64,000 bases of DNA, from assembly GCA_002702705.1 (NCBI GenBank), contig PABH01000008.1, positions 62,001 through 126,000 on the forward strand. Reading direction: 5' to 3'. Positions 10,224 to 56,472 of the stretch are shown in pieces (position 1 is the stretch's first letter; each line of letters opens with the position of its first letter). Made by a program: the position numbers and the translations under genes. This DNA comes from Anaerolineaceae bacterium. GTDB taxonomy: Bacteria; Chloroflexota; Anaerolineae; Anaerolineales; Anaerolineaceae. The notes under the pieces were generated by a model, which saw only the letters and a list, made by a program, of their open reading frames with translations, did no database searches and was not told the DNA's origin.

Positions 10224-10252
10224 GTTATATACAATATTGACAACGTTGTCAA
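10224..10252 (-). promoter_or_regulatory. Promoter of the CobW-type gene
   Basis: Read on the minus strand, a perfect -35 box TTGACA (10247-10252) is followed by a 17-base spacer and the -10 box TATAAC (10224-10229). The start codon is 37 bases further on. The -35 box and most of the spacer are covered by the palindromic operator, so a bound repressor would exclude RNA polymerase. Confidence 0.75.
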
Positions 10253-10255
10253 TAT
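10234..10255. promoter_or_regulatory. LacI-type operator, site 1 (perfect 22-base palindrome)
   Basis: This is a perfect 22-base palindrome with the core GACAACGTTGTC and a central CpG, as LacI-family operators typically have. It sits 47 bases upstream of the CobW-type gene and overlaps its -35 box. The same core recurs at 12367, 16040 and, with one change, 56321. The LacI-family gene lies 150 bases to the right, which makes it the natural candidate for the binding protein. Confidence 0.82.
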
Positions 10256-10400
10256 GAAGGGGCAGATAGTCCAGGACGATTTAAAAACTAGCAATAAAAA
10301 AGATTTTGGGGAACAAAAAGTTATCAGTTAAACAGATACCCCATTCAAATCAATCGAGCAAGTTTATTTTCCCTTGAACATCCTCTACCGCAATTGAGAA

Positions 10401-11408
10401 TTACTCTTTTCTAGCCGTGGACCCCCGCTCAATAATGGTGGTGGGAAAGATCATTTGCTTCACATCCAAAGGACGATCTTCAACCAATTTTATTAACATC
10501 TCAACCGATTGTTCAACAATCTGCTCAACCGGGTACTTGACAGCGGTAATACCTGGCCATATTTGATGGCTAAAACCCATATCACCAAAAGAGACCAAAG
10601 AAACCTGATGAGGCACTTTAATTCCCAATTCATTCAATGCAAACAACGCTCCCGCTGCAGCCTCATCACTTAATGCAAAAATGGCGCTGGGTGGTTGTTT
10701 TAAACCCATTAATATTTTTGTCGCATTGTATCCACCGGGGAAATTGTTTTCTGAATCAATTGCCAATTGTTCATTAAAAGCCAGGTCATTTCGTTCCAGT
10801 GCAGCTCGAAAGCCGTACAATCGATCCAGGCTGGTGCGGTGGTTCCGCAGCCCCATTAATAACCCAATTCGATAATGCCCCAATCCAATCAGTCGTTCTG
10901 TCATTTGATATGCACCAGTATAATCTTCAGCAGAAACATAAGGTGTACCACCGGTGGGATTAATCGGAGCAATATGTACATGGGGTAGTTTGCTCTGTTG
11001 AATCATATTAATTAAATAAGGATCACTATCACAAGGCGGTGTTGTTACCAATCCATCAATTCGGCGTTCATTAATTAAGGAAGCGATTTTGCTTTGAGAA
11101 CGTGAAAAGGCAGGGTAATAGGTCTGGATTAAAATATCATAATTGCCCTCATATCCAAGATCAAGCACTTTTGAAATAAGGGAAGATTGAAAAACTCCGG
11201 AAGCATGCAGCAAAATACAGATCATATACGATCGGTTCTGAACCAACCGGCGCGCTGAAATATTGGGAACATAACCCAACTCATCAATGACAGCAAGGAC
11301 TCGGTCTCGTAAATCAGGTGTTACATGTGCTTCCTGGTTAACAACCCTTGATACTGTTTTTATCGAACATCCCGCTTTTTTTGCTACATCCCGTATCGTT
11401 ACAGACAA
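10401..11408 (-). CDS. LacI-family transcriptional regulator of the corrinoid/URO-D regulon
   Basis: The protein has 335 residues. The N-terminal LacI helix-turn-helix (TIRDVAKKAGCSIKTVSRVV, about 3-22) and hinge helix (NISARRLVQNRS, about 53-64) are followed by a periplasmic-binding-protein-like sensor domain. It is full length for the family. The start is TTG at 11408 with AGGTGA just upstream; no nearby ATG fits. Four matching palindromes in the window lie at promoters of corrinoid and URO-D genes, so it probably represses methyl-transfer genes until a substrate or product binds. The ligand is unknown. A 9-base inverted repeat lies in its own upstream region, but the four-site palindrome does not. 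Confidence 0.87.
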   Translation of the reverse strand: MSVTIRDVAKKAGCSIKTVSRVVNQEAHVTPDLRDRVLAVIDELGYVPNISARRLVQNRSYMICILLHASGVFQSSLISKVLDLGYEGNYDILIQTYYPAFSRSQSKIASLINERRIDGLVTTPPCDSDPYLINMIQQSKLPHVHIAPINPTGGTPYVSAEDYTGAYQMTERLIGLGHYRIGLLMGLRNHRTSLDRLYGFRAALERNDLAFNEQLAIDSENNFPGGYNATKILMGLKQPPSAIFALSDEAAAGALFALNELGIKVPHQVSLVSFGDMGFSHQIWPGITAVKYPVEQIVEQSVEMLIKLVEDRPLDVKQMIFPTTIIERGSTARKE

Positions 11409-11447
11409 ATTATCACCTGGACCCTGAATTTTATTCTATTATAACAA

Positions 11448-11480
11448 ACAAAGGATGACTGAATCTCAGAAATCCTTTGT
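11448..11480. repeat. 9-base inverted repeat upstream of the LacI-family gene
   Basis: ACAAAGGAT (11448-11456) and its reverse complement (11472-11480) flank a 15-base loop, 40-72 bases upstream of the LacI-family start. On the minus strand it follows the corrinoid-protein gene and is followed by TTTGTTATAAT, so it could be a weak terminator for that gene, an operator, or chance. I cannot decide. Confidence 0.35.
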
Positions 11481-11630: not shown

Positions 11631-12269
11631 TTATTTTTGCAATAAGGCTTTTGCTTTAGCAACAGCCCGGCTGGCATCCTCAGCGAAACCATCAGCACCA
11701 ATTTGATCTGCATAAGCTTGTGTAATTGGAGCACCACCAATCATAACTTTCACCTGGTCACGAATGCCTGCTTCAACCAGCGCATCGATTGTGTTTTTCA
11801 TATTGGGCATTGTGGTAGTTAATAAAGCGGACATAGCAATGATTTGAGCTCCGCTTTCTTTTATAGCTTCTACATATTTTTCGGGACTGACATCGGTTCC
11901 CAAATCAACCACTTCAAAGGCAGCACCTTCCAACATCATAGCAACCAGGTTTTTACCAATATCGTGTAAATCACCTTTGACCGTTCCGATAACGACCTTA
12001 CCAGGAGATTGAACATCATCTTCAGAAAGGTAGGGTTTTAAGACTTCCAAACCTTTCTGCATTGCGCGGGCTGCAATCAGCATTTCGGGAACAAAATACT
12101 CGCCATCTTCAAACAATTGCCCCACTTCTCCCATAGCAGCGATCATACCCTCGTTCAAAATCACTGCCGGTTGGATGTTAGCAGCCAATGCGGCTTCAAC
12201 ATTTTCCAATACCTGTTTGGTATTACCATCCAAAATACCTTCATAAATTTTTTCTAATTCAGGACCCAT
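11631..12269 (-). CDS. Corrinoid protein (MtbC/MttC/MtmC-type methyl carrier)
   Basis: The protein has 212 residues, the usual size of free-standing methanogen/acetogen-type corrinoid proteins. The helical B12-binding-2 cap (about 1-85) includes GQLFEDGEYFVPEMLIAARAM. It is followed by the B12-binding Rossmann domain (about 88-212) with the base-off motif DLHDIG at 100-105, His102 being the lower cobalt ligand. The family carries methyl groups as methyl-Co(III) between a substrate methyltransferase and an acceptor methyltransferase. It is transcribed away from the RamA-like activator, and an operator lies between the two. GGAGG precedes the ATG. The URO-D proteins and the homocysteine methyltransferase here are its likely partners. 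Confidence 0.92.
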   Translation of the reverse strand: MGPELEKIYEGILDGNTKQVLENVEAALAANIQPAVILNEGMIAAMGEVGQLFEDGEYFVPEMLIAARAMQKGLEVLKPYLSEDDVQSPGKVVIGTVKGDLHDIGKNLVAMMLEGAAFEVVDLGTDVSPEKYVEAIKESGAQIIAMSALLTTTMPNMKNTIDALVEAGIRDQVKVMIGGAPITQAYADQIGADGFAEDASRAVAKAKALLQK

Positions 12270-12366: not shown

Positions 12367-12378
12367 GACAACGTTGTC
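12367..12378. promoter_or_regulatory. LacI-type operator, site 2, between divergent corrinoid genes
   Basis: The 12-base core GACAACGTTGTC is intact, flanked by T on one side and TA on the other. It lies 14 bases before the ATG of the RamA-like gene and about 100 bases upstream of the divergent corrinoid-protein gene. It would block transcription start or elongation towards the activator gene and could also affect the divergent promoter. Confidence 0.78.
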
Positions 12379-12392: not shown

Positions 12393-14246
12393 ATGTCACA
12401 TTCCGACCCCAAAAAATTATTTATTGTTGATCTTGAACCGCTAGGTAAACGAGTTCAAATCCAATCAGATCAAACCATTGTTGATGCTGCATTACTTGCT
12501 GGCCTGGATTTGATTACCTCTTGTGATGGACTTGGCATTTGTGCTTCTTGCAAAATTCACCTCATGCAAGGCCAACTTTCTTCACCAACAATCGAGGAAA
12601 AAAACAAATTATCCGACTTGGATTTAAACGAAGGAATCCGTTTGGCTTGCCAGGTTTCACCGCACAGCGATGTGCGGATTTATGTTCCCCCTGGTTCCTT
12701 AACACAAGGTCAAAAATTGCAGGTTGAAGGAAGACAGCAAACCGTTTATTTGTCCTCATCGATATCGGCATTGGATCTATCCCTTACCCCCCCTTCCCAA
12801 ACCGACTTAAGTGATGATTTTGAACGGTTGCGCCAGAATTGTCTGGAAAATCACCAAATCAACCTAAGTGCTTCACTGCCTGTTTTGCAAAACCTTCCTG
12901 AGATTCTGCGAAACAACCAATGGCAGGTACGTTTAGTTTTAAACCGTAATGAATTGGTATCAGTACTGCCCTCGAAAACAGATTATTATGGGTTGGCACT
13001 TGATATCGGGTCAACAAAAATTGCAGCATATTGGGTCAATCTAACATCAGGAGCCATCATTAAGCAAACTGGTTTTATGAATCCACAAATCTCCTTTGGA
13101 GAAGATGTGGTTAATCGAATCACGTATGCCAATCAGGGTGAAAAACAACTTCAAAAACTTCACGAAGTATTAATTAACACTATCACTCAGCACATCAGTG
13201 AAACCTGTGCTGAGTTTGATCTTCAACCCCAGCAAATTGTGGATATGGTCGTGGTTGGCAACACCATTATCCATCATCTATTCTGTGGTTTGCCAGTCCG
13301 CTCAATGGGAGAAGCACCTTATGTGCCGGTGGTGAAACAGGCTCTCGACTTTCCTGCAGTCCAGCTTAACTTAAAAATTGCGAATGGTGCAAAAGTCTAT
13401 TTACCTCCAAATATCGCCGGATACGTGGGTGCAGACCACACCGCTGCCATCTCGGCAGTTCGCTTAAATGAACAAAAACAAACGGTTTGTTTAATCGACA
13501 TCGGCACCAATACGGAAATCAGCCTGATTCATAATCAAACCATCCAGGCTTGTTCTTGTGCTTCCGGACCAGCATTTGAAGGTGCACACATTCGAGATGG
13601 AATGCGGGCTGCTCCTGGCGCTATTGAACAAGTTTATATCAATCAAGATCAAATTTCCTATACCACAATCAATCAAAAACCCGCTGTTGGTATTTGTGGT
13701 TCTGGTATTCTTTCGGCTGCCGCAGAAATGCGAAAAAATTCAATCCTGGACCGGCGCGGCGTGTTTCAAAAAAGCCATCCTCTTGTCCAACATAATGGAA
13801 AAGAAACATTTTTACCTCTCGCAGCCCCACAACAAAAAAATCAAAATCACACTATCCTAATTAATCGCTCTGATATTCATGAAGTCCAGTTAGCAAAAGG
13901 TGCCATTCGCAGTGGGATTGAAATTTTATGCAAAAAAGCAGATATCGAACCGCAAAATGTGGATGTATGGCTCATTGCCGGGGCATTTGGCACCCATTTG
14001 GATATCCAAAGTGCAATTGATATTGGCATGTTCCCAGATACCCCCCTCGTTCGTTACCAACAAATTGGCAATGCTGCAGGGGTTGGCGCAAAAGAATTAC
14101 TGATTAATGCAGAACGACGCCAACAATTGGAAGAAGTGGTTAAGGATATAAACTATATTGAACTAACTGCGGAACCAACGTTTAGCGATACTTATGTTCA
14201 GGCATTATCCCTGGAGAAAAATGAAAAACTCGATTTTGAAGATTAA
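12393..14246 (+). CDS. RamA-like corrinoid reductive-activation protein (2Fe-2S, DUF4445)
   Basis: The protein has 617 residues. It starts with a plant-type [2Fe-2S] ferredoxin domain with Cys44, Cys50, Cys53 and Cys86 (TSCDGLGICASCKIHL ... RLACQ). A linker follows, then the DUF4445/ASKHA ATPase-like region with LALDIGSTKIAAYWV (about 203-217), VCLIDIGTNTEISL and CGSGILSA. Such proteins reduce inactive Co(II) corrinoids to Co(I) in an ATP-dependent way and keep methyltransferase corrinoid proteins active. The gene starts 14 bases after an operator and overlaps the next gene by 26 bases. Confidence 0.9.
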   Translation: MSHSDPKKLFIVDLEPLGKRVQIQSDQTIVDAALLAGLDLITSCDGLGICASCKIHLMQGQLSSPTIEEKNKLSDLDLNEGIRLACQVSPHSDVRIYVPPGSLTQGQKLQVEGRQQTVYLSSSISALDLSLTPPSQTDLSDDFERLRQNCLENHQINLSASLPVLQNLPEILRNNQWQVRLVLNRNELVSVLPSKTDYYGLALDIGSTKIAAYWVNLTSGAIIKQTGFMNPQISFGEDVVNRITYANQGEKQLQKLHEVLINTITQHISETCAEFDLQPQQIVDMVVVGNTIIHHLFCGLPVRSMGEAPYVPVVKQALDFPAVQLNLKIANGAKVYLPPNIAGYVGADHTAAISAVRLNEQKQTVCLIDIGTNTEISLIHNQTIQACSCASGPAFEGAHIRDGMRAAPGAIEQVYINQDQISYTTINQKPAVGICGSGILSAAAEMRKNSILDRRGVFQKSHPLVQHNGKETFLPLAAPQQKNQNHTILINRSDIHEVQLAKGAIRSGIEILCKKADIEPQNVDVWLIAGAFGTHLDIQSAIDIGMFPDTPLVRYQQIGNAAGVGAKELLINAERRQQLEEVVKDINYIELTAEPTFSDTYVQALSLEKNEKLDFED

Positions 14247-14967
14247 ATGTATCAGTTGTGAAGCCTTAGCGCGACCCGTTTATTATTACAGCGCTATCAC
14301 ACCACACCAAGTGGATTTGGAAATCCAACGTATCGGACTCCATGACCGGCCCACCAGCCTGCGAGAACAACTCCAACAGCAGATAAATGAAACCCCATCA
14401 AACACTTATGATGCCATTGTTTTGGTTTATGGTTTATGCGGGAGGGCTATCGATGGCCTCACCAGTCTAGACACACAACTTGTAGTACCTAGAGCACATG
14501 ACTGCATCACCTTGCTTTTAGGCAGTCGAGAAGCATATCAGCAGCAACAAAACGAATATCCAGGCACGTATTGGTATTCTCAAGATTATTTAGAACGCAG
14601 TGGTCGTTATGGGGAAAGTATGGCACTCGGCAGTGGTATGCCGGGTGATTTACAAACCGTTTATCAAGAATATATCGATAAATATGGACTTGAGAACGCA
14701 GATTACCTGATGCAAACAATGGGAAGTTGGCAGGCGCATTACACTCGCGCTGTATTGGTTGAAAACGATCTGGGTGTGAAACAGAATATCGCTGAACAGG
14801 CTCACATTGAAGCAGAAAAACGCGGCTGGAAGTTAGAAAAACTGGAAGGCAACTTATCCATCGTAAAAAAATTGCTTTTTGCAGAATGGGATCAGGATTT
14901 CTTAATAGTCCCCCCAAAAGCCAGCATCCACATGACTGTCGATGAAGAGATCATCACTGCAAAATAA
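14221..14967 (+). CDS. DUF1638 protein of the corrinoid module
   Basis: The protein has 248 residues from the ATG at 14221, which has GGAGA upstream; an upstream in-frame ATG at 14194 has no ribosome site. The sequence has the DUF1638 hallmarks: ISCEALARPVYY near the start, AIVLVYGLCGRAIDGL near residue 65, VVPRAHDCITLLLGSREAY near 85 and a C-terminal ILIVPP-like segment. DUF1638 proteins recur next to RamA-like and methyltransferase genes in anaerobes, but their role is not settled. The conserved Cys residues (CISCEA, GLCG, HDC) could bind a metal or thiol ligand. Overlap with the activator gene argues for translation coupling. Confidence 0.8.
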   Translation: MKNSILKIKCISCEALARPVYYYSAITPHQVDLEIQRIGLHDRPTSLREQLQQQINETPSNTYDAIVLVYGLCGRAIDGLTSLDTQLVVPRAHDCITLLLGSREAYQQQQNEYPGTYWYSQDYLERSGRYGESMALGSGMPGDLQTVYQEYIDKYGLENADYLMQTMGSWQAHYTRAVLVENDLGVKQNIAEQAHIEAEKRGWKLEKLEGNLSIVKKLLFAEWDQDFLIVPPKASIHMTVDEEIITAK

Positions 14968-14995: not shown

Positions 14996-15877
14996 ATGAA
15001 TACATCTGAATTAAATAATTGGCTGCAAAATAAAAAAACTGTAATTATTGATGGCGCTACCGGGACAAACCTCCAAAAAATGGGCCTTCCGATTGGTGCC
15101 AGTCCGGAAACATGGGTCATAAATAATCCCGAGGCTGTATTAGGTTTATACACCCAATTTGTAGATGCCGGTTCGAACATCATTCTTAGCTGTACCTTTG
15201 GTGGCAACCGTATTCGATTAAGCCACGCTGGTTTAGAAACGAAATCTCAAGAGGTGAATCAAACAGCTGTCACACTTGCAAAACAAGCGACCCATGGGAA
15301 GGATGTGTTGGTTGCCGGTTCAATTGGACCAACGGGTGAAATGATGGAGCCTTTTGGTACCCTCACCGAGGAAGCGGCTTTTGATATATATAAACAACAG
15401 GCCCAATACTTAATTGATGCTGGTGTTGATTTGCTGGTGGTCGAAACCCAATATGATTTAAACGAAGCCTTAGCTGCCATTCGGGCAGTGCGGTCCATAA
15501 GTGATATCGCGCTGATTTGTTCGTTTAGTTATGACCGCGGTACCCGTACCATGATGGGTCTTAAACCAAATCAAGTCGTGGAAGCCTTAAAAGAAACGGA
15601 TGTTTTTGCAATCGGGGTTAACTGCGGCAAAAGCCTGGAAACCAATCTTCAAGTTCTAGAAACTTTAAGTTCAATAACCGATAAACCATTATGGTTTAAA
15701 CCAAATGCCGGCGCTCCGGAAACGGATGAAACGGGTGGCGTCCATTACCATATCGCTCCGGAAGATATGGGTTCACAGGCAAAAGAATGGGTAACCATGG
15801 GGGCACGGTTTGTGGGTGGCTGCTGTGGTACCAGTCCACAACACTTGGCCGCGATTAAACAAGGCATAAAAGGGTAA
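14996..15877 (+). CDS. Homocysteine S-methyltransferase domain protein (MetH N-module type)
   Basis: The protein has 293 residues and forms a zinc-dependent homocysteine-binding (beta/alpha)8 barrel. It opens with IIDGATGTNLQKMG, and carries the three zinc cysteines at Cys210 (GVNCGKS) and Cys276/Cys277 (GGCCGTSP). It is only the homocysteine-binding module; the folate, B12 and activation modules of MetH are absent. With the free corrinoid protein and the activator next door it could form a split methionine synthase, or demethylate an S-methyl compound. AGGAGA precedes the ATG, 28 bases after the DUF1638 stop, so it belongs to the same transcript. Confidence 0.87.
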   Translation: MNTSELNNWLQNKKTVIIDGATGTNLQKMGLPIGASPETWVINNPEAVLGLYTQFVDAGSNIILSCTFGGNRIRLSHAGLETKSQEVNQTAVTLAKQATHGKDVLVAGSIGPTGEMMEPFGTLTEEAAFDIYKQQAQYLIDAGVDLLVVETQYDLNEALAAIRAVRSISDIALICSFSYDRGTRTMMGLKPNQVVEALKETDVFAIGVNCGKSLETNLQVLETLSSITDKPLWFKPNAGAPETDETGGVHYHIAPEDMGSQAKEWVTMGARFVGGCCGTSPQHLAAIKQGIKG

Positions 15878-16037: not shown

Positions 16038-16066
16038 TTGACAACGTTGTCATTTGGTGATAAAGT
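16038..16066 (+). promoter_or_regulatory. Promoter of the thioredoxin-fused URO-D gene
   Basis: A perfect -35 box TTGACA (16038-16043), a 17-base spacer and a -10-like TAAAGT (16061-16066) lie 42 bases before the start codon at 16108. The operator core covers the -35 box, the same arrangement as at the CobW-type gene. Confidence 0.65.
16040..16051. promoter_or_regulatory. LacI-type operator, site 3
   Basis: GACAACGTTGTC, identical in core to sites 1 and 2 and flanked by TT and AT. It overlaps the -35 box of the promoter for the URO-D/thioredoxin gene, so repression is the expected mode. Confidence 0.8.
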
Positions 16067-16107: not shown

Positions 16108-17496
16108 ATGCAGCAAAACACCTCTTTTTTACGAAACGGAAAAAAGTTAATTTTTGATGTCTTAAATCATCAAGAAACAGCAGATATTCCCTGGGTTCCA
16201 TTTTCAGGCGTACATGTTGGTAAATTAAAAAACTACCACGCTGATACAGTTTTACAAGATGGTGAAAAATTATTGGAATGTTTGTTAGAAGCCAATCGTC
16301 TCTACGCACCGGATGGACAACCGGTTGTCTTTGACCTTCAGATCGAAGCAGAGATTCTTGGCTGCAATTTATTATGGGTACATGATTCTCCACCCACCGT
16401 TGTGGATCATCCGCTGCAATCAAACCCGACCATTCCGGAAATTTTACCCACCCCACAAGATCGCCGATTACCCATGATTTTAGACGTAATGCAAAAAATG
16501 AAGTCAGCTGTTGGAGAACATACAGCTTTGTACGGGTTGATCACTGGTCCATTTACCCTGGCTTCCCACCTGCGCGGAACGGATATTTTTATGGATATGG
16601 TGGATCAACCAGAATACGTGATCGATTTGTTGGATTACTGCCGTCGTTTTGTCCAAAAGATTGCCCAATATTACATCCATGCGGGAATGGATGTGATCGC
16701 TGTCGTTGACCCAATGATCTCCCAGATATCACCGCGCCATTTTAAACGTTTTATGAGCCAGCCTTTTACTGAATTGTTTAATTCAATCCGGGAACAAGGA
16801 AAGTTTTCTGCCTTTTTCGTTTGTGGTGATGCAACCAAAAATATAGAATCCATGTGCTCAACGGGGCCTGATTGTATTGCAGTTGACGAGAACATTGATA
16901 TGGTCGCCGCTCAACCCATCACCCAAAAATATAATATCACTTTACAAGGCAACATCCCCCTCACGACCCGTATGCTGCTCGGTCAGCAGGAAGACAATAT
17001 GCAGTATGTGATTCAACTACTTGATTCCTTGGATCACCAAAATCTGATCATATCACCTGGATGCGATATGCCATACGATACACCCATCGAAAATGTAATA
17101 GCAGTTGCAGAAGCGATCCGTAATCCCGAACAAACACGATTAATTTTGGAGAATTACAAAGCCAATGACATTGATCTGAGCAGTGTCATCTTACCGGATT
17201 ACAAAAACTTAAAAAAACCATTAATGGAAGTATTTACACTTGATTCTTCTGCCTGTGCCGCCTGCAGTTATATGTTAGCTGCTGCCGAACGTGCCGCAGA
17301 ATCACTTAACGGAGCGGTAGATATGGTTGAGTATAAAATCACCAAAGCGGAAAATATTGCACGATTAATGAAAATGGAGGTCAAAAACCTTCCAGCAATA
17401 TTAATCAACGGTGAATTAAAATTCAGTTCCTTAATACCTCCCCAACAGGAATTAATCGATACGCTAAAATCTTATCTCCCTTCTAATTCGGATTAG
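16108..17496 (+). CDS. URO-D family methyltransferase with fused C-terminal thioredoxin-like domain
   Basis: The protein has 462 residues. Residues about 15-350 form a uroporphyrinogen-decarboxylase-like barrel of the corrinoid methyltransferase kind (MtaA/MtbA relatives), with Cys239 (FFVCGDA) and Cys319 (SPGCDMPYDTP) at the zinc-site positions. The usual His of the H-x-C motif is replaced by Phe237. Residues about 375-460 form a thioredoxin-like domain with a C383-A-A-C386 redox motif and an AILINGE-like cis-Pro region. The ATG at 16108 is chosen because an upstream in-frame start would begin two bases after the operator. A role in methyl transfer to or from the corrinoid protein is inferred; the fused domain suggests a thiol partner. 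Confidence 0.8.
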   Translation: MQQNTSFLRNGKKLIFDVLNHQETADIPWVPFSGVHVGKLKNYHADTVLQDGEKLLECLLEANRLYAPDGQPVVFDLQIEAEILGCNLLWVHDSPPTVVDHPLQSNPTIPEILPTPQDRRLPMILDVMQKMKSAVGEHTALYGLITGPFTLASHLRGTDIFMDMVDQPEYVIDLLDYCRRFVQKIAQYYIHAGMDVIAVVDPMISQISPRHFKRFMSQPFTELFNSIREQGKFSAFFVCGDATKNIESMCSTGPDCIAVDENIDMVAAQPITQKYNITLQGNIPLTTRMLLGQQEDNMQYVIQLLDSLDHQNLIISPGCDMPYDTPIENVIAVAEAIRNPEQTRLILENYKANDIDLSSVILPDYKNLKKPLMEVFTLDSSACAACSYMLAAAERAAESLNGAVDMVEYKITKAENIARLMKMEVKNLPAILINGELKFSSLIPPQQELIDTLKSYLPSNSD

Positions 17497-28756: not shown

Positions 28757-28812
28757 AAATATGAGAAGAACGATCAACATAACATCTTTTTGGTTAACGA
28801 AAGGTGACTAAC

Positions 28813-29952: not shown

Positions 29953-29993
29953 TTCAAAAAATGATTTTAACATATGTGTGAAAGGAAATAAAC

Positions 29994-30746: not shown

Positions 30747-30763
30747 GCAGAGAGAGGTTTTTT

Positions 30764-31543: not shown

Positions 31544-31617
31544 TCGGAATTTAGTTTACCGTTACTTGTTCACCCACTTGGTTTCAACACAGCTCTGACA
31601 AAAAAGGAATTTATTAA

Positions 31618-33914: not shown

Positions 33915-33956
33915 TTTCATGTATTCTGGTTTTGTTTAATAAGGACATATTTTTTT

Positions 33957-45063: not shown

Positions 45064-45080
45064 TATCTCACCTCTCTGGC

Positions 45081-45863
45081 TTAGTTTTTTCCATTTAAGA
45101 TATCCATTGCGGCATCAACGGATACATCTTCATGAATCAGAGCAGCCACTGCTGCTGTCATGGCTTGTGGATCATCTGCTTGAAAAATGTTCCGACCGAT
45201 AGCAACGCCTTTTGCACCCACATCCAAAGCTGTTCGGATTTTTTCAAGCATAACTCGTTCACTGCCTTTTTTAGCCCCACCAAGAATCACGGCCGGAACA
45301 TAACAGGTTGATGTAACCTCTTCAAATCCTTCTGCATAGGGGATCTTCACCCAATCAGAACCTAATTCCGCCCCAATCCGCGATGCGATTGAAATACTTT
45401 CGGCTGTGCGCATATGGTCCGGACTGTCAAAACCCCCCGGGACCATTTCACCCATTACAGGAATTCCCCAGGCGTGGGCTTCACTAATGATTTTCGCAAG
45501 CATTCGCATTGAGGATTCTTCTTCCGGAGCCCCAGGAAACGCTGAAACGGCAACCGCATCTGCGCCAATCCGAATAGCATCTTCAATAGAATAAAACTGT
45601 GAACCCGGTCCCATTTTTCCTAATTTGGTTCCACCACCATCCATTCTGAGGATTAATCCCAGTGGCTCAATTTCTTTTGCAAATCGTAACGCAGTGCCAT
45701 ATGATGTAAGAATAGCATCTGCTCCACCGGCAGCAATTTTCCGCAAAGTTTCGGCAGGTTGTTCCATTCCCTTTGCAGGCCCGTCAAGCATGCCATGATC
45801 AAAAGCAACAATAAATGCCCGTCCATCGGGACGGAAGATGTGATTTAGACGACGTGTAACCAT
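45081..45863 (-). CDS. DhnA/LsrF-type class I aldolase, copy 2
   Basis: The protein has 260 residues from the ATG at 45863; an in-frame TTG 18 bases upstream lies inside the preceding gene. The Schiff-base Lys is in [12 protein letters not shown] near residue 178, and [19 protein letters not shown] near residue 22 and [12 protein letters not shown] near 196 match copy 1 at 30764. The two aldolases share FDH/MEH-x-x-x-x-GPxKGxEQP and VKIPYxxGFEE. It follows the hydroxyacid dehydrogenase gene with one base between stop and start. Confidence 0.83.
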
Positions 45864-45864
45864 A

Positions 45865-46872
45865 TTAAGAAATCCTTTCAAACATTTCTGGGGTTATCTG
45901 GTAAACAGCTGGTTCACCAGCAAAATAACGGCGTAATTCTTCAACAGCCAACTCACCCATTTGGTTACAATTTTCAATACAACCAGCAATATGGGGTGTG
46001 ATGACAACATTATCCAAAGATCTTAATGGACTATCCAGAGCCGGAGGTTCCGGATCTGTAACATCCAAAAATGCAAAAAACCGGCCTTTACTTAACTCCT
46101 TAATTAATGCCTCTTCTTCAATCAAAGTACCACGTCCTGTATTCACGATCAAGGCTTCATCTTTCATCAAAGCCATTCCCTCAGCATTTAATAAATGATA
46201 GGTATGTTTATTTGCTGGTGCGTGCAAGGACACGATATCAGAAAGCCGTAATAAGTCATTCAGTTCCATTTTTGTGGTACCTAAGTTTTTAGCTTCTGCC
46301 TCATCAACAAACGGATCATATAAGAGGACATTGGGGGCAAAAGGTTTTAATAATTCAATCACATGACGGCCTACGTTACTTGCGCCAATAATACCCACAT
46401 TCTTTCGATACAATTCGCGAGAAAACCATTTATCCCAAGCAGGAGAATCACGCCAGCCACCATCGCGAACATGTTGCCCCAATGGCCAAATCCTTTTTTG
46501 TCCCACAATCATTAATCCTAATGTTGTTTCAGCTACGCTTCTTGCTAATGCAATCCCCGCACTCGTTAAATGAATGTTGCGCTGCCAAAATGCATCGGAG
46601 ACAAACCGTTTCACACTGCTGCCCATATGTGCCATAGCTTTGAGTTTTGGGGCAGCTTCAACCACATCAGCATCCAAACAGGCAACATCCCAACTGGTGA
46701 TACATGCATCTGCATCAGCTAACAAGGTAATTAATTCCTCTTTATTTGCAGGGTCCTGGCCTGGGTGATGAATAACATTCGCAAAGGATTCTAGTGCATC
46801 CCATGCCTGTTGGCTAAACATCCTTGGATAGTGAGATTGTCCGATTGTAATTGCAACTGTCTTTTTGTCCAT
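45865..46872 (-). CDS. D-isomer-specific 2-hydroxyacid dehydrogenase
   Basis: The protein has 335 residues. The NAD site is [19 protein letters not shown] near residue 155. The catalytic triad is Arg in [10 protein letters not shown] near residue 246, Glu in [10 protein letters not shown] near 272 and His in [11 protein letters not shown] near 293. It reduces a 2-oxo acid such as hydroxypyruvate or glyoxylate to the D-hydroxy acid. It lies between an FGGY kinase and an aldolase gene and has no counterpart in the plus-strand copy of this gene set. The ribosome site is weak (GGAG about 12 bases up). Confidence 0.86.
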
Positions 46873-46925
46873 TATTTCTTTATTAACTCCTGTATAAAAT
46901 TCGATTTCTAAATGAACTTAAATCT

Positions 46926-48413
46926 TTATTTAATTAAATCTCTGTAGTATTTGTATTTTTGAAAAGATTGTTCATATTGGTTGATTAATTCTTTTTGTGG
47001 AATGATTTCAACTTGAGATTTTTGAAATCTTTCCAACCCATATTCCAGGTCCTTAAATACACCAACCCCACAGCCGGCTAAAATAGCTGCACCTAGTGCC
47101 GGCCAATTGTCATATTGAGGCAGTTGGATTGGAATTCTGGTCACATTGGCCAATATTGTTGGCCATAAGGGACTTTGGGCAGCACCGCCAACCATCCATA
47201 ATTTCCGAATAGGAATATTCGCAGCCGTTACTCGTTCAAGAGCCCATCTCAGCTCGTATGCAGCGCTTTCCATAATTGCCCTCGCCATATCCGCCCGAGA
47301 ATGACCTAATAACAAACCAAGAAACGCACCGCGTCTGGTCGTGGAAGGATCATCATGACCTCCAGTTAGCGGTAGGAAAAACAACTCAGGGTCCATTTTT
47401 GTGCTTTCCATCTCAGTATTTAACAAAGCAAACATTTCTGAACGGTTAATTAATTCTATTTCAGGCAAATACGTCTTATTCATCCACCATTCAAATGACG
47501 CTCCCAATCCACCCAGAGATTGGGATAGAGTCCAGCGATCAGGGACGGCATGAAAATTCAAATCAAGAGTCTGCGGTAAATTGGTCATATCCGGGGAAGT
47601 TAATACACCCGTAAAAACCCAGGCTGTGCCACAAGCTAACAACATTTTGCCGGGATCATTGATACCCAAACCAAGGGCAGTACACCCTTGGTCGTGTCCA
47701 CCATTTATTAATATTGCTCCTGGTGTTAATCCCGTCAATTTACAAATTTCCGGTAAAACAGTCCCTATTTTTTCTCCTGCTGGAGCCATTTCGGATAAAT
47801 TATTGACCTCAATCCCAGCCAACTGGCATAATTTTTCACTCCACTGGCCCGTCTTGATATCCACCAATTGCATTCCACCTGCATTGGAGGGGTTTGTAAT
47901 CTTTTTTCCGGTTAACCGAAAAACCAAAAAATCGTTCACCGAAAAAAACATTTTTGTGGATTGAAATACTTCCGGATTATTCTTTTTTAACCAGTGAATG
48001 GTTGGTAAACATAAACTTGGATATAAGGACCAACCACTTAATGGTTTAACCCATTCTTGCTGACCTTCATTTTTCCAAATTTGGACAATTTCCTCAGCAC
48101 GACCATCTAACCAGGTGATCATAGGATAAACCGGGTTACCTTCACCATCTGCTGGTATTAAGGACCCGCTTTGAACGGCCATGCATAAGGCTTTAATCTC
48201 AACCGGTTGTTTTAAAGATGAAGTTAATGTTTTAATTGCTGTCAAAACAGCTAACCACAGTTCTTCAGGATCTTGCTCTACCCACCCAGGAAATGGTGTG
48301 TGATTATGATAGGGCGCAGAACTGGCACGTGCCAATTCTTGCCCTTCCAAATCGAACAACACCACTTTGGTAGAAGTTGTACCGACATCAATTCCTAATA
48401 AACCATTTACCAT
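46926..48413 (-). CDS. FGGY-family carbohydrate kinase, copy 2
   Basis: The protein has 495 residues. It starts with LGIDVGTTSTKVVLFDLEGQELA; the catalytic Asp lies in NGGHDQGCTALG near residue 240 and the second signature in WMVGGAAQSPLWPTILANV near 400. Shared segments with copy 1 at 31618 (FSVNDFLVFRLTG, TNPSNAGGMQLVDI) show common ancestry. It should phosphorylate the sugar or polyol imported by the ABC system upstream. The start lies 13 bases after the amidohydrolase stop. Confidence 0.87.
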   Translation of the reverse strand: MVNGLLGIDVGTTSTKVVLFDLEGQELARASSAPYHNHTPFPGWVEQDPEELWLAVLTAIKTLTSSLKQPVEIKALCMAVQSGSLIPADGEGNPVYPMITWLDGRAEEIVQIWKNEGQQEWVKPLSGWSLYPSLCLPTIHWLKKNNPEVFQSTKMFFSVNDFLVFRLTGKKITNPSNAGGMQLVDIKTGQWSEKLCQLAGIEVNNLSEMAPAGEKIGTVLPEICKLTGLTPGAILINGGHDQGCTALGLGINDPGKMLLACGTAWVFTGVLTSPDMTNLPQTLDLNFHAVPDRWTLSQSLGGLGASFEWWMNKTYLPEIELINRSEMFALLNTEMESTKMDPELFFLPLTGGHDDPSTTRRGAFLGLLLGHSRADMARAIMESAAYELRWALERVTAANIPIRKLWMVGGAAQSPLWPTILANVTRIPIQLPQYDNWPALGAAILAGCGVGVFKDLEYGLERFQKSQVEIIPQKELINQYEQSFQKYKYYRDLIK

Positions 48414-48426
48414 AACCGTCTCATCA

Positions 48427-49782
48427 TCATTCGATTGTTACGCCTGCCCGATCAAACAGGTCCTGACATACTTTTCTGGCTTTATTCAGAATTAATTTTT
48501 CATCCACCACGAGAATTTCTTTGTCCCGCATCAGGATGTTCCCATCCACAATTACTGTATCCACATCTCTCGTACTAACGTTGTAAACCAAAGCGGAAGC
48601 TACACGGTGAACAGGCATTGCCATAGGTGTGTTTAAATCGATTAAAACCAAATCGGCTTTTTTACCGGGCTGCAAGGAGCCAATTTGTTCAGGAATACCA
48701 AATGCTCTGGCTCCTCCTCTACAAGCCATTCTCAAAACGTCTTCCGGTAACAAAACCATCGCATTTAATGTGTTTACCTTATGCAACAATGCTGTGGTTT
48801 TTAAAACAGCCAACATATCCTGATTATTGTTACTACCGGGACCATCACTCGCCAACGCAACGGTTATTCCTTTGTTAAGCATTTCAGGTACACGAGCCAC
48901 ACCGGAAGCAAGATACATGTTACTGACTGGGCAATGGACCACAACCGCATTGCTTTTTGCGACAAGTTCGATTTCATGGTCGGTTAACCAAACACTGTGT
49001 ACTAATTGAAAGTCAGGCCCTAAAACACCAATTTGATCTAACCATTCAATATGCCGGTTACCCCGTAAATCCATATTCATTTCAATTTCTTTTTGGGTTT
49101 CTGCGACATGAATATGGGTACCTGAACACCATTCTTTACTCATCGTATGAGTCTTTTTCATGGTCTCATCGGAACAACCCCAAGGAATCAGCGGGCCGTA
49201 TTCCACCCGAATTCTACCGTTAGCCGCGTTTTCCCATTTCTGACGTAAACGTGTTGTTTCCCGCACAATTCTTTCCGGTGTTTCCATTAATGCAGGATGG
49301 TAATCCATATCTGCCCATCCTCTTGCTAACAAAAACCGCACTCCGGTTTCTTCAGCAGCACGGCATACACCATCATCATTAAAGGGATCAGCATGGATAT
49401 ATTGGTGGTCTATGACAGAAGTTGCCCCACCTCGCAGATTTTCAATTAATCCAACCATAGCAGCCAAATAAGCTTCTTCTTCAGTCATTGCCTGAGCAAC
49501 GGGCCAAATTGCAGTTTTTAACCAATCTAACAATGGTTTATCATCTGCTAAACCACGAATAAAAGTTTGGAAAAGATGGGTGTGAGCATTTACCATACCC
49601 GGCATAACAGCCATCAAATGAGCATCAATGACTGTATCAGCTTTCTGATAAGGAAGAGGAGCTTCACCTTCACCTACTGCAACAATGAGATCATTTTCAA
49701 TAAAGACAAATCCCGGACAATATACTTCTTCTTTCTCATTGATCGTTAGTACCGTACCATTTTTGATTAATATGGTTCCCAT
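48427..49782 (-). CDS. Amidohydrolase (AtzB/SAH-deaminase/8-oxoguanine-deaminase-like), copy 2
   Basis: The protein has 451 residues. Metal ligands are H-x-H in VNAHTHLFQ near residue 64, His in HIHVAETQKE near 222, His in LVHSVWLTD near 259 and Asp in ALASDGPGSNNNQDM near 310. Its length and the CPVSNMYLASGVARVPEM segment fit deaminases of S-adenosylhomocysteine, methylthioadenosine, guanine derivatives or hydroxyatrazine. It pairs with the kinase/aldolase set as in copy 1 at 33957. GAGGA lies just before the ATG, 49 bases after the upstream gene. Confidence 0.83.
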   Translation of the reverse strand: MGTILIKNGTVLTINEKEEVYCPGFVFIENDLIVAVGEGEAPLPYQKADTVIDAHLMAVMPGMVNAHTHLFQTFIRGLADDKPLLDWLKTAIWPVAQAMTEEEAYLAAMVGLIENLRGGATSVIDHQYIHADPFNDDGVCRAAEETGVRFLLARGWADMDYHPALMETPERIVRETTRLRQKWENAANGRIRVEYGPLIPWGCSDETMKKTHTMSKEWCSGTHIHVAETQKEIEMNMDLRGNRHIEWLDQIGVLGPDFQLVHSVWLTDHEIELVAKSNAVVVHCPVSNMYLASGVARVPEMLNKGITVALASDGPGSNNNQDMLAVLKTTALLHKVNTLNAMVLLPEDVLRMACRGGARAFGIPEQIGSLQPGKKADLVLIDLNTPMAMPVHRVASALVYNVSTRDVDTVIVDGNILMRDKEILVVDEKLILNKARKVCQDLFDRAGVTIE

Positions 49783-49831: not shown

Positions 49832-52210
49832 TTATTCTCTTGGGCGAATTCGTGTTAATACATTTTGATCTTGAATATCTTTCTCCAAGTTATTTAATAA
49901 GGGCTCAAATTGATCCAATAATTCTTCTTCTGGCCAAATCCTGAGATTACTATCCAAAAGTAACAATGCAGTTCGTGCTGTTCCGTTTAACAAACTGATA
50001 CTCATTTCAAGATCATCTCGAACCCGTTCATATACTGTAGGCCGAAATTCTTCCAAAATTTTTGATGTTTGAATAGATAAAGAAGCAACTTGATATGGTA
50101 AGTGACACAAAAATTCTTTTCCCTTTAATTCTTGCCCACTTTCTCGTAAAGTAACGAACTCAGCAATTGCATTGGCATCCTGATCAGCGTAATGCTTCAA
50201 CTGCCTTATCAGTCCATTTAATTGATCCTTTAAATGATGAATCTGGTTTTCTGAAATCGACTGAACATCGCAAGAAATTAATACACATGCTTTACCCAAG
50301 GCGGCTGCTTGAGCTGCTGATAAAGCAATAACTGCTCCTGCCATAGCGTGCTTTTGGGATCCAACATGGGAGATAAATTCATTTCCAGTCATCGCTGTAA
50401 CCATTAATGGTTTTTGATCTACGATTTTTAGGCGCCCATCACAAACTGCCCCAGTTTCATAAGTAATTCCGCCCTTTTCCTGGATATAGGTTACCATTTC
50501 TGTGCGTAGAAAAATATCTGTATCTGAACGCTGGTAACGATTCAGGTCTACAAGCGGACAATTGTTGCGGTAATTTTCAGTGTTTTCCCAACTATCTGCA
50601 TATTCACGAATGAAATTTGTGCCCGCAATCAAAAACTCTTTTTCAAATTGTTCTTCAATTGGAACACCATTTAAAGTGATATGAAATACTGAAGCATCAG
50701 ACCGGCTTAATCCTAAAGCAATTGAATATCGAATATGGGAACTAAAGTGTAAGAAACCTCGTTCTGTGTGGGGTTCATTCGGGCGGTCAATTCGGCTGGC
50801 ATTGTCTTGTAATAAGTCGTAAATCTGTTTTCCCGTAAGCCGATAGATCCGGATCGTATCCGCAAACGGCATGATATTAAACCAATCACCCATGGTAATG
50901 ATATTTCCTAAAGATAAACCACGTCGCAAACTTGAAGAATCAATCATGCCAATATCCACTGGTTGGTTTAATGTTTTCAACCGGTAGACGATCCCATCTG
51001 TAATAAAATTTGCTAATGATAATTCGCGATTTCCATAATAATTTCTTATGTAATCGGTATGGTACTCAGGGTTATCCAATGCGATACCAATCGGTCTGGA
51101 GAATAAATTCCTTGCTTGTGTTAACAGCGGTTGAATTTGTTTTGTCTCAAAGTGCTGATCAACTGGCAATGTTTCTGTAGAAATTAATCTCACATTGGTG
51201 ACCGCAGTATTTTTATTACTTACTTGTATGTCTACCTGTCCTAAAAACCGCCCTAAAGAACCAGCTTGAACAATAGGAATGCCATTTACAATATTTTTTG
51301 CATTCAAACCTTGTCGATTTAATTCATGATGTGAATGTCCACCCACAATCAAATGCACATAACCTTTGGGTAAACGCTCGGCAAGTTCAACATCACCAGC
51401 CGTTTTCATTGGAATTGTCGCATTTGACAACTGGTATCCAATATGGCTTAGGATAATGATCACATCGCAATGAGGACGGAGCGCTGGGAGGAGATTATTT
51501 ACAGCGGTGATCGGGTTTGTCACTTCACATAAAGGATTTGAGATCTTTAATTCCGCTTGAGTAACCAAACCGATCACACCTACTCTAATTCCCTTCACAA
51601 CGATGATCGCTGCGGGATGACATAATTCTTCCAGTTCAGTACAGCCAGATAAATTAGCAGCCAAAATCGGAAATTTAGCATTCTTTTTTATCGAACGTAC
51701 CAGCAGGTCACTACCCAGATCAAAATCATGGTTCCCCAAACAAGCAGCATCTACGCCCAACTCAGAATACGTTTGATAACTGGCATGCACTTCATAATCT
51801 CGAGCCGTAGACCCCAATAGCTCATCAAAAATGGAACCTATACAGTCATCCCCTGCTGTTAGGGTAAGCACAGCACGATTGGGATCTGATGCAACAGATT
51901 TTTGTTTTTCCCGTATTTGTGAAGCCATTCTGGAGATAACCGGTTCTTCACCGGCAGGTGTAAATCGCACCAAATGGCCATGGAGGTCATTAAAATGATA
52001 TACAGTTAGTTGGAAACCTTCCTGGTTTAGTTTGTCAGAAGGTCCTGGTAAAGAAAGGTTTGGGTCTGGAACCAGTGACGAAATTTTTTCTTTGGTTGAA
52101 TCCCCAACCAAGAGATACACCTCTCGATCAGATAAATCTTCTCGATAGGAAGAATCAAATACAACACGAAGTGTACCTGGAGTGGATGGGGATTTTTTTG
52201 AAGTTGTCAA
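49832..52210 (-). CDS. 5'-nucleotidase/metallophosphoesterase fused to an FTCD_C-like cyclodeaminase domain
   Basis: The protein has 792 residues. Residues about 67-330 form the calcineurin-like phosphoesterase: YHFNDLHGHL (Asp75, His77), TAGDDCIGSIFDE, LGNHDFDLG and IVGGHSHHEL. Residues about 375-590 match the 5'-nucleotidase C-terminal domain (GMIDSSSLRRGL, TGKQIYDLLQDN). From residue 603 on, FISHVGSQKHAMAGAVIALS through RPTVYERVRDDL and LDSNLRIW resembles the formiminotransferase-cyclodeaminase C-terminal domain. There is no signal peptide, unlike most 5'-nucleotidases, so it is cytoplasmic. The start is TTG with an in-frame stop directly before it. The combination points to nucleotide or folate one-carbon work. 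Confidence 0.72.
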   Translation of the reverse strand: MTTSKKSPSTPGTLRVVFDSSYREDLSDREVYLLVGDSTKEKISSLVPDPNLSLPGPSDKLNQEGFQLTVYHFNDLHGHLVRFTPAGEEPVISRMASQIREKQKSVASDPNRAVLTLTAGDDCIGSIFDELLGSTARDYEVHASYQTYSELGVDAACLGNHDFDLGSDLLVRSIKKNAKFPILAANLSGCTELEELCHPAAIIVVKGIRVGVIGLVTQAELKISNPLCEVTNPITAVNNLLPALRPHCDVIIILSHIGYQLSNATIPMKTAGDVELAERLPKGYVHLIVGGHSHHELNRQGLNAKNIVNGIPIVQAGSLGRFLGQVDIQVSNKNTAVTNVRLISTETLPVDQHFETKQIQPLLTQARNLFSRPIGIALDNPEYHTDYIRNYYGNRELSLANFITDGIVYRLKTLNQPVDIGMIDSSSLRRGLSLGNIITMGDWFNIMPFADTIRIYRLTGKQIYDLLQDNASRIDRPNEPHTERGFLHFSSHIRYSIALGLSRSDASVFHITLNGVPIEEQFEKEFLIAGTNFIREYADSWENTENYRNNCPLVDLNRYQRSDTDIFLRTEMVTYIQEKGGITYETGAVCDGRLKIVDQKPLMVTAMTGNEFISHVGSQKHAMAGAVIALSAAQAAALGKACVLISCDVQSISENQIHHLKDQLNGLIRQLKHYADQDANAIAEFVTLRESGQELKGKEFLCHLPYQVASLSIQTSKILEEFRPTVYERVRDDLEMSISLLNGTARTALLLLDSNLRIWPEEELLDQFEPLLNNLEKDIQDQNVLTRIRPRE

Positions 52211-53251: not shown

Positions 53252-53252
53252 A

Positions 53253-54317: not shown

Positions 54318-54336
54318 GTTTATAGTTTTTTCTTAC

Positions 54337-54360
54337 ATTATCTTAATTTTTTAAGATAAT
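54337..54360 (-). repeat. 10-base perfect stem-loop directly after the solute-binding gene
   Basis: ATTATCTTAA (54337-54346) pairs exactly with TTAAGATAAT (54351-54360) across a four-base loop of T. It is the first of two tandem hairpins after the stop codon of the binding-protein gene, 13 bases away. The AT-only stem is weak on its own. Confidence 0.55.
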
Positions 54361-54373
54361 GAAGTGTTAAAAA

Positions 54374-55834
54374 TTAATTGTTAGCGTTGTATTCATCCTG
54401 AACACTTTGTAATTCAGTCGCAATATCAAGGCTCGGGTCTTCTTTAACCAGTTTGTAAACTGCATTCATGATCGCCGGTGCGGCTTCAGCGGGGCGCTCT
54501 AAAGAACCAGCCCAATTTGTACAAACACTGGCGTTGACAGCGATGGCTGCTTGTTGATAAAAAGGAGTCTGCATATCAGGATGTGACTGAGCAGATTTGA
54601 GTGATGGGAATCCAGCACCTGGGCCAATAACAAATTCAACGTGGCGGTCAAGATCACTCATGATCCAGTTAATGTAATCATAAGCTGCTTCAACGTTTTT
54701 AGCACCGGTTGGGATACCAAAACCTTGAATATCTAAGTTACAACCGGGGGTCTGTCCTTCCGGAGCAAACATGGGGCGCATAACAACTTTTCCATCAGCG
54801 ATTGCATCCAGCATGTCGTTTTCGTTGCCCTTTTCATATTTGGTTCCATCCGGGGCGGTTAATGGATTGATGTAGCGATATCCAAACAAACCAGTTGGAA
54901 TGGCTGCAGCGGAGGAGTCTTTGAAGGAATCTTCTTCAACAAATCCACCAGCAAAAACTGTTTCGGGTTGGTATTCTTTCGCAATGGTTTCTCGCAGGAA
55001 TTCGATTGCTGCTACGTTTTCAGGAGTATTCAGCAACATATTTCCTTGACCATCATCATACGTTCCACCAAATGAGGAAATCAAGGACCAAACCATACGG
55101 CCGGTACCTGATCCATCATAAGCTGTGGATCCGAAGTATGTCCAGGCATAGGTACCTTCTGATTTCAATCGTTCGGCTTCAACCATGAACTGCTCTGGTG
55201 TGGTGGGATAACCATCAGGATAATGCTCTGCCCAAACATAGGTTAAGGCCGGGCGTTCTGCTGTGGGGATACAATACAAACCACCATCTGGACCAGTACA
55301 GGTAATGATAGCACCTGGATCAAGATCTTCGTACCAAGATTGTGCTTTTGCCCAATCGCTTAAGTCCATTAAAGCACCATTATTGATATAGGTGATTGTC
55401 TGCTGTCCACCCAATTCAATTAAATCGGGAACATCGCCACCGGCGATAACTGCTGCTACCAATTCCTGTGTCATTTTATCCCAGGCTTTTGGTACATTTA
55501 CCCAATTCCATTTTCCGGCGAAATCAGCGTTAAATTCGGGGATGGTTTTCTTTAAGTATGCATTACCCACACGCTCGTCACTGGCGGGGTCTTCGTTATT
55601 TTCATCGTATTGATACCAGGTCACGAAATCCATAACTTCCATGGGTTCTTCAACAACCGGTTCTTCAGCCACAGGTTCTTCTGCAACCGGTTCTTCGGCC
55701 ACAGGTTCTTCTGCCACAGGCTCGTCCACAACGGGTGCGTCAGTTGGAGCTGCAGGACTGCTGCAGGCTACCAATGCGGCTGTAAAGACAACCAAAACCA
55801 ACACAATCAAAAACGATCTAAACTTACTTTTCAT
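54374..55834 (-). CDS. ABC extracellular solute-binding lipoprotein (family 1)
   Basis: The protein has 486 residues from the ATG at 55834, with AAGGAG six bases upstream. The lipobox LVAC puts the lipidated Cys at 24. A low-complexity linker (about 36-65) repeats Glu-Glu-Pro-Val-Ala and leads to the two-lobed sugar-binding domain, which includes PDLIELGGQQTITYINNGALM near residue 130 and ends near QDEYNANN. Such linkers are common in Chloroflexota binding proteins. It delivers a sugar or polyol to the two permeases downstream. Substrate specificity cannot be read. Confidence 0.87.
   Translation of the reverse strand: MKSKFRSFLIVLVLVVFTAALVACSSPAAPTDAPVVDEPVAEEPVAEEPVAEEPVAEEPVVEEPMEVMDFVTWYQYDENNEDPASDERVGNAYLKKTIPEFNADFAGKWNWVNVPKAWDKMTQELVAAVIAGGDVPDLIELGGQQTITYINNGALMDLSDWAKAQSWYEDLDPGAIITCTGPDGGLYCIPTAERPALTYVWAEHYPDGYPTTPEQFMVEAERLKSEGTYAWTYFGSTAYDGSGTGRMVWSLISSFGGTYDDGQGNMLLNTPENVAAIEFLRETIAKEYQPETVFAGGFVEEDSFKDSSAAAIPTGLFGYRYINPLTAPDGTKYEKGNENDMLDAIADGKVVMRPMFAPEGQTPGCNLDIQGFGIPTGAKNVEAAYDYINWIMSDLDRHVEFVIGPGAGFPSLKSAQSHPDMQTPFYQQAAIAVNASVCTNWAGSLERPAEAAPAIMNAVYKLVKEDPSLDIATELQSVQDEYNANN
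55643..55723 (-). repeat. 15-base tandem repeat in the binding-protein linker
   Basis: About five near-identical 15-base units encode the repeating Glu-Pro-Val-(Ala/Val)-Glu linker. Units differ only at a few synonymous positions, so the repeat is recent and probably varies in copy number. Confidence 0.75.
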
Positions 55835-56472
55835 TCTTTTCTCCTTAATACGTCCATTGAATAACAATTCTTAAACCATTTATTCTTAAATTTCCATCAA
55901 TTTTATTGAAGCACCTCCATTATTTATGATATAGCATGTTCAAAAAAGTTTTTTTCATCGTATTTCTGAACACGGAAATTTTCTCTCAAAATTTTATGTG
56001 TTTCCATAATGGCAAAAAATCAAACTTCAAAAAATGGATAATTCCTTTATTTTGATGGGTTTAATATCTCAGTGGGTTTTTTCAGCATGTTGGGTAACAA
56101 ACTTTATGTGGATTGATTTTTTTAGTTTTTTGGGGAATTTATTTGTAAAACAGATCAGTTAGATAGTAACACAAAAGAAAATCATTTTCAAGTATCACTT
56201 AACAAAATTAAGTACCACAAAATACATTAAGAGATTTTTTTGATTTTAACGGGTTTTTATCAAGAAAAATACAGACATCCTTATGATTTGTTTATTTTTA
56301 AAATTATATTATAATTTTTTGACAACGATGTCAAATAATTCTTTTTAGAATAAAAACTTTTTAGAGTTCCCAGAAATGTTTTGTCCAGTTAATTGTATTA
56401 ATCGTTTAAACATGGTTGTAATAAATGAATATTTATCCAAAAGTGAATTTTATGATCTATATGGAGTAGAAG
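55835..56472. other. Divergent intergenic region between the ABC importer and URO-D genes
   Basis: These 638 bases separate two divergent units: the ABC-importer genes to the left and the URO-D gene to the right. The sequence is very AT-rich. The only feature I can support is the operator-like palindrome at 56321-56332, 140 bases before the right-hand gene. No small gene with a ribosome site, and no tRNA or other RNA consensus, was seen. Promoters for both sides must lie here, but no box pair stands out. Confidence 0.6.
56321..56332. promoter_or_regulatory. LacI-type operator, site 4 (one base off)
   Basis: GACAACGATGTC differs from sites 1-3 at a single core position and keeps the flanking TT and AA, so TTGACAACGATGTCAA stays a near-palindrome and again contains a -35-like TTGACA. 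It lies 141 bases upstream of the URO-D gene at 56473, 45 kb from the LacI-family gene. A -10-like TAGAAT (56346-56351) lies at a poor 21-base spacing. Confidence 0.65.

Follow-up and report, generated by a model that had tools for sequence, protein, structure and literature searches.

A predicted LacI-family regulon of corrinoid-dependent methyl-transfer genes in an Anaerolineaceae bacterium

Regulators of the LacI family typically recognise even, CG-centred palindromes at sites upstream of their target genes, and autoregulation is typical of the family, being common (72%) but not defining (Ravcheev et al. 2014, PMC4052901). The DNA analysed here, referred to as the window, is a stretch of 64,000 nucleotides from an Anaerolineaceae bacterium (contig C10, positions 62001-126000, of a genome, G000, of 5,885,093 bases in 74 contigs; further genomes, contigs and loci are likewise given G, C and L numbers). 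It carries a lacI gene whose product is predicted to act as the local repressor of a hub of genes for corrinoid-dependent methyl transfer, a reading to which we assign a probability of about 0.75. The system resembles the local LacI regulons of PMC4052901 in its combination of a helix-turn-helix (HTH) domain with a periplasmic-binding-type sensor, its even CG palindrome, the upstream position of its sites, and, in 10 of the 14 genomes with an orthologue, a site no more than 250 bp upstream of lacI. It differs from those regulons in that its targets are corrinoid methyl-transfer genes and not a sugar pathway; neither "corrinoid" nor "methanol" occurs in the text of that paper.

The target genes themselves recall the MtaABC methanol:corrinoid systems, with which the window shares a corrinoid protein, an MtaA-like URO-D protein, a reactivase and a CobW-type gene, and in relatives mtaB stands under the same operator. 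In MtaA the HxC residues are zinc ligands, and the window differs from MtaABC in that its URO-D protein presumably lacks one of them (the HxC His) and carries a thioredoxin-like domain, while the genome has no mtaB. A second likeness is to CdmBCA and other O-demethylase systems with a URO-D-fold MTI (PMC13222342), which likewise combine a URO-D-fold protein with a corrinoid protein and an activating enzyme; the URO-D protein behind the fourth site of the window is, in contrast, only weakly similar in sequence to CdmB (E 0.001). CobW-type (COG0523) genes adjoin mtaA-, mtaB- and mtaC-type genes according to PMC2770081, and by this gene context the window's CobW-type gene is likened to COG0523 subfamily 13. 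The type 1 mlp clusters (PMC10418091), which concern related methyltransferases, were also considered and set aside, the text holding no LacI, DUF1638, Chloroflex or COG0523 terms. Among the matches listed from the open-licence literature, none was found to report that a LacI protein regulates corrinoid methyltransferase genes; the regulon is new in this respect, and its target is unusual for the family.

Four copies of an operator-like palindrome lie in the window, none with an assigned strand. Site 1 (10237-10252, exact core 10239-10250) is the perfect 16-base palindrome TTGACAACGTTGTCAA, an even palindrome with a central CG. Site 2 (12367-12378) is an exact copy of the 12-base core GACAACGTTGTC between the divergent genes for the corrinoid protein and a RACo-type reactivase. 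Site 3 (16038-16053, exact core 16040-16051) reads TTGACAACGTTGTCAT and is accompanied on the target strand by TTGACA-17-TAAAGT, and site 4 (56319-56334, core with one mismatch 56321-56332) reads TTGACAACGATGTCAA directly behind a promoter-like pair, TTGTTT-16-TATAAT. The sites stand 52, 15 and 98 (site 2, its two sides), 57 and 141 bases from the starts of their target genes. A preliminary description of this DNA had listed three exact cores and a one-base variant, all intergenic, and both the positions and the placing between genes are borne out, its interval 10234-10255 being a core plus flanks. Its statement that each site marks a promoter belonging to a gene of the corrinoid or URO-D kind does not extend to site 1, which lies 52 bp before a gene for a CobW-type GTPase.

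The element is rare. Six matches to the core at up to two mismatches occur in the window, against a mean of 1.87 in shuffled sequence, and none of 100 shuffles reaches six. The exact 12-mer is found three times in the whole genome, always in the corrinoid module, where base composition predicts 0.29-0.35 occurrences. Cores with one mismatch occur at six more places: site 4, three tandem copies before a lacI gene on contig C4, one copy within a LacI gene on C10 and one within an open reading frame (ORF) on C27. The 16-mer TTGACAACGTTGTCAA at up to two mismatches has six places in the genome, namely the four sites and two within ORFs; at up to three mismatches it has 37, against 44 for a reversed control, so that looser matching carries no signal. 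By these core and 16-mer counts, the motif is not one that recurs at many unrelated genes, the outcome that the preliminary description had named as damaging to its proposal. A matrix built from 27 sites of relatives, with G000 and its nearest relative G005 left out, gives the four sites the four highest scores of the window (30.8, 30.1, 27.3 and 25.9), although the strength of the core in these scores is partly by construction, since the training sites were picked at no more than one mismatch to that same core, which is to be held against them. The next score in the window, 6.9, is also the highest among its sugar genes, which indeed lack a site, and the highest in 20 Markov null windows is 13.8. 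Shuffles, genome-wide counts and matrix together reject a chance origin of the sites.

The distribution of the element among relatives follows that of the regulator. In a comparison of 61 genomes, the genome itself included, LacI orthologues (at least 39% identity) were recognised in 14, and all 14 contain the exact 13-mer TGACAACGTTGTC, as against 5 of the 47 others (Fisher p 5e-10). Three of these five have it within ORFs only, and two (G047 and G060) have it before a lacI gene of the C4 type. Most genomes with sites show the same module around them (lacI/UROD_Trx, corrinoid protein/RACo, cobW and HcySMT, the last a homocysteine S-methyltransferase-family gene and UROD_Trx a URO-D gene with an added thioredoxin-like domain); G005 has the same three-site layout, and G015 has lacI with its site alone, on a 7-kb contig. 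When the stretch that separates the corrinoid protein gene from the RACo gene is compared in seven genomes, a 14-base sequence, TGACAACGTTGTCT, stands out as the longest invariant block, and this is the operator. In a scan of named genomes, the best 80 of 172 confirmed lacI loci were kept, the first 23 (L165-L187) being from Chloroflexota, and an exact core was found at 22 of these 23. Thirteen of them belong to genomes already counted; nine of the ten new ones have the core, including that of Anaerolinea thermolimosa IMO-1, and at the tenth the contig begins 331 bases before lacI. Both samples together give 23 of 24 genomes with an orthologue. A further 57 LacI loci, more distant ones, have no 14-mer at up to two mismatches within 500 bp upstream, the best having three, so the motif is not a general property of such LacI proteins.

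The UROD_Trx gene allows regulator and module to be separated. Of the 61 genomes, 15 carry it, and the LacI orthologue accompanies it in 13 (p 2e-10). Eleven of these 13 have an exact site no more than 1.5 kb from UROD_Trx; G019 and G033, the remaining two, have theirs at mtaB. Neither of the two genomes with UROD_Trx and no LacI orthologue (G031 and G034) has an exact site within 1.5 kb, and these module copies contain no intergenic site at all, G031 having imperfect matches inside ORFs only. The operator thus tracks the regulator and not the module, although two such copies are few.

Several points weigh against this reading. The relatives are non-independent samples, and the orthologue limit (39% in, 37% and 36% out) was set after the table had been seen; adding the two next genomes, G039 and G034 (37% and 36%), which lack the 13-mer, lowers the count to 14 of 16. 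The lacI genes of G000 and G005 have no site within 250 bp upstream. Eight LacI proteins of Caulobacter share the helix sequence IKTVSRV, yet for none of them do the 500 bp upstream hold such a site, and within G000 itself the recognition helix of the paralogue on C4 is identical to that of the window LacI. Co-occurrence in relatives, the conserved footprint and the rarity in the genome nonetheless leave the proposal of a single LacI regulon, made in the preliminary description, well supported for sites 1-3.

That paralogue is a possible competitor for the sites. Among the 12 LacI-type HTH genes of G000, only the window's and that on C4, which stands beside genes for a sugar-type ABC transporter, have the recognition helix SIKTVSRVVN, and three tandem near-copies of the core occupy the promoter of C4 lacI itself (C4:24230-24265; L110 8231-8266). 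The C4-type lacI genes are preceded by two or three head-to-tail imperfect cores in G000, G004 and G055 (two each in the latter pair, at L289 7563-7586 and L290 5150-5174) and by a single, perfect core in both G047 and G060, whose orthologues (65%) have an exact TGACAACGTTGTCA in front. That the C4 protein is the main or an additional occupant of the window sites is, however, unlikely. Close C4-type orthologues (at least 64%; next 40%) are found in 5 of the 61 genomes and are absent from 12 of the 14 with a window-type LacI, which makes the latter the likely owner of the sites; in G047 and G060, moreover, no exact site occurs outside ORFs except that at the C4-type lacI, and 16 kb of C4 have 49% GC against 41% in the window. 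Binding by a LacI protein encoded elsewhere, which the preliminary description had also named as damaging, is possible in vitro, as cross-binding in G000 and G004, where a C4-type LacI co-occurs with the window type; the imperfection of the tandem cores at C4-type lacI genes may reflect an escape from cross-talk.

The window LacI thus being the preferred candidate, the position of its sites bears on what it would do there. Of 31 scored operators, 23 entered the test for a -35 hexamer, leaving out seven of the site 2 type and the lacI-proximal site of L089; three more sites near lacI (L091 9025, L092 9901 and L094 1760) are unscored. At the operator edge, 21 of the 23 have TTGACA on the target strand and 12 have it on the opposite one. 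The best -10 hexamer at a spacing of 16-18 bases reaches 4.7 of 6 on the target strand against 2.4 opposite (p 1.6e-4), with the reservation, also unfavourable to our reading, that target strands, although taken from gene maps, were assigned when the scores of both strands were already known. Two operators, the HcySMT one in G020 and site 4, show the reverse, and L082 7255 is tied. At site 1 the overlapping pair is TTGACA-17-TATAAC. Repression by covering the -35 hexamer is therefore the likeliest mode of action, and at site 4, where the promoter-like pair ends just ahead of the operator, the placing would also fit repression.

The same hexamers could suggest that the motif is a type of promoter, made of inverted TTGACA boxes, and not an operator, as TTGACA is the -35 consensus and is followed by -10-like hexamers. 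This is scarcely credible: the conserved core spans both arms and the centre, which is more than a -35 element, operators of the site 2 type keep the 12-mer without TTGACA, and the two module copies that lack a window-type LacI also lack the motif. The position of site 2 by the promoter of the corrinoid protein gene would permit LacI to activate some targets, and in several relatives operators of this type adjoin a leftward TTAACA-19-TATAAT pair and do not cover it. We regard activation as quite unlikely, given that site 2 lies only 15 bases before the start of RACo and that TTGACA is within the site at 21 of the 23 other operators.

The genes that would be repressed form a compact module. The site 1 target is the CobW/COG0523-type GTPase gene (9096-10187, minus strand; Pfam cobW). 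Next comes lacI (10401-11408, minus strand), whose product matches the Pfam LacI and Peripla_BP domains (PF00356, 61.8 bits, cut-off 27; PF13377, 101.7 bits, cut-off 26.5); the gene lies 222 bases behind, and on the same strand as, that for the corrinoid protein (11631-12269, minus strand). The corrinoid protein has B12-binding domains and is MtgC/MtbC/MtaC-like, although none of its NCBIfam matches to the MtaC, MtbC and MtgC models reaches the cut-off; MtgC and MtbC score above MtaC. To the right of site 2, all on the plus strand, are the genes for a RACo/AcsV-like corrinoid reactivase (12393-14246), a DUF1638 protein (14194-14967) and the homocysteine S-methyltransferase-family protein HcySMT (14996-15877), each identified by domain match. 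The site 3 target, UROD_Trx (16108-17496, plus strand), encodes an MtaA-like URO-D domain joined to a thioredoxin-like domain with a CAAC motif; its ORF opens at 16054, and the ATG at 16108 is the likelier start.

The strongest hint at the function of the regulon comes from mtaB, the gene for the methanol methyltransferase, whose family (PF12176) was not found in G000 and is present in 7 of the 61 genomes. In six of these seven the LacI orthologue is present and a site stands before mtaB or before a corrinoid protein-mtaB pair; the seventh, G031, has neither orthologue nor site. Counted by locus, a site precedes mtaB or its operon at eight of nine loci, the miss being G031, although two of the nine (L178 and L187, both with a site before mtaB) were reached through lacI and the nine are thus not an unbiased sample. 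Some listed mtaB ORFs (for example at L093) open ahead of the site, so that translation probably begins at a more internal codon. As the site precedes mtaB in relatives, the regulon would serve corrinoid methyl transfer. For G000 a methanol regulon as such is rejected, MtaB being absent. MttB was also considered as partner and not retained: the one MttB-family homologue lies on another contig (C5:10119-11531, L307), and the first 20 kb there contain no core, even with two mismatches allowed.

Site 4 has been taken to tie a second gene cluster, 40 kb away from the module, to the same regulator. The run behind it comprises six plus-strand genes (gaps of 40, 73, -3, -10 and 37 bases), for a URO-D-fold protein with an HxC motif (UROD_56k, 56473-57519), an AraC-family regulator (57559-58383), a Gfo/Idh/MocA oxidoreductase (58456-59637), two xylose-isomerase-like TIM barrels (59634-60461 and 60451-61386) and a second URO-D-family protein (61423-62415). 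The best NCBIfam match of the oxidoreductase is inositol 2-dehydrogenase, far under the cut-off (111 against 355 bits).

We consider the site 4 link likely and recent, so that the connection proposed in the preliminary description probably stands, as a lineage-specific one. The alternative, that the site is a chance match or a relic, that the 56-62 kb cluster lies outside the regulon and that sites 1-3 alone are real, is a possibility to be taken seriously, if not the expected outcome. Speaking for this alternative, and so against the link, are the single mismatch of site 4, at a nearly invariant position, its failure in the -35 test of in-operator hexamers and the presence in the cluster of its own AraC regulator. 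The orthologous clusters of AraC, Gfo/Idh, barrel and URO-D genes that G004, G006 and G007 possess also have no site in the stretches examined, except for a two-mismatch match within the AraC ORF of G004, and none accompanies the nearest orthologue of UROD_56k (G019, 55%). Chance is harder to reconcile with the matrix score of 25.9, 12 bits above the best of the 20 null windows, and with the recurrence of the same A variant at HcySMT of G020 (L088 8476) and at UROD_Trx of L174 (9821). In G007 a homologue (40%) of UROD_56k comes with a degenerate site, TTGTCAACGCTGTCAA, about equally far away, and a different URO-D gene has an exact palindromic core (L098 8218). In G005, orthologues of the AraC and second URO-D genes (71-72%) stand directly behind UROD_Trx (L082), an arrangement that appears to be a second way of bringing such genes to the module.

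The G007 URO-D gene at L098 lies near orthologues of the substrate-binding protein, ABC permease and 5'-nucleotidase genes of the window (56-77%), which means that a sugar-transporter neighbourhood carries a site in that genome. In the window itself, genes for DeoC-type aldolase, FGGY kinase, SDR and amidohydrolase proteins form two parallel sets (28804-36124 and 44284-49782) on either side of E1/E2 dehydrogenase genes, and a further, weakly similar aldolase/kinase/SDR/amidohydrolase set lies downstream of the window (L111-L112). A 792-aa protein encoded at 49832-52210 joins metallophosphoesterase/5'-nucleotidase domains to an FTCD_C domain.

The first URO-D proteins behind sites 3 and 4 differ in the HxC motif. 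UROD_Trx scores 136.9 bits against the MtaA/CmuA family model TIGR01463, below its cut-off of 235.4. In all 14 sequences read, the His of HxC is replaced by Phe (FFVCGD), with PGC kept, and the added domain has CAAC; the protein may be a modified methyltransferase that brings its own thiol. UROD_56k matches PF01208, and its residues H243 and C245 (H243-x-C245) are invariant in six sequences. Its predicted structure (mean pLDDT 80.9) matches MtaA (4ay7) with a TM score of 0.76 and decarboxylases with scores up to 0.74, so that the reaction cannot be read from the fold; the HxC motif favours a methyltransferase, and corrinoid methyl transfer is a prediction.

The following sequence of events would account for these observations. 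A LacI dimer would bind the palindrome, and at most targets, where the outer TTGACA of the operator would double as the -35 hexamer, the bound repressor would hide the promoter; at site 4 it would sit just behind the -10 hexamer, over the likely transcription start. A small-molecule effector, more probably sugar- or polyol-like than methanol itself, would free the repressor. Release would then allow leftward expression from site 2 of the corrinoid protein and lacI and rightward expression of the reactivase, DUF1638 and homocysteine methyltransferase genes, jointly with that of the URO-D/thioredoxin protein from site 3 and the CobW-type GTPase from site 1. The hub would receive methyl groups from a substrate-specific methyltransferase, which in some relatives would be MtaB, acting on methanol and placed under the same operator, and for which, in a genome without mtaB, the URO-D operon behind site 4 is the candidate. 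A more detailed version of this scheme is doubtful and is offered as conjecture: LacI and the corrinoid hub would be fixed, the methyltransferases would be swapped between lineages (MtaB in some, URO-D proteins tied to sugars or polyols here and in G007), the site 4 operon would demethylate an O-methyl sugar or cyclitol, and LacI would sense that compound.

For Acetobacterium dehalogenans, with its 26 methyltransferase systems, how the use of methylated compounds is regulated is called largely unexplored in PMC13222342. A compact LacI regulon, whose exact core occurs also in Anaerolinea thermolimosa IMO-1, would make the regulation of methylated-compound use open to experiment, and its operator may serve as a search key for uncharacterised URO-D proteins that work with a corrinoid hub.

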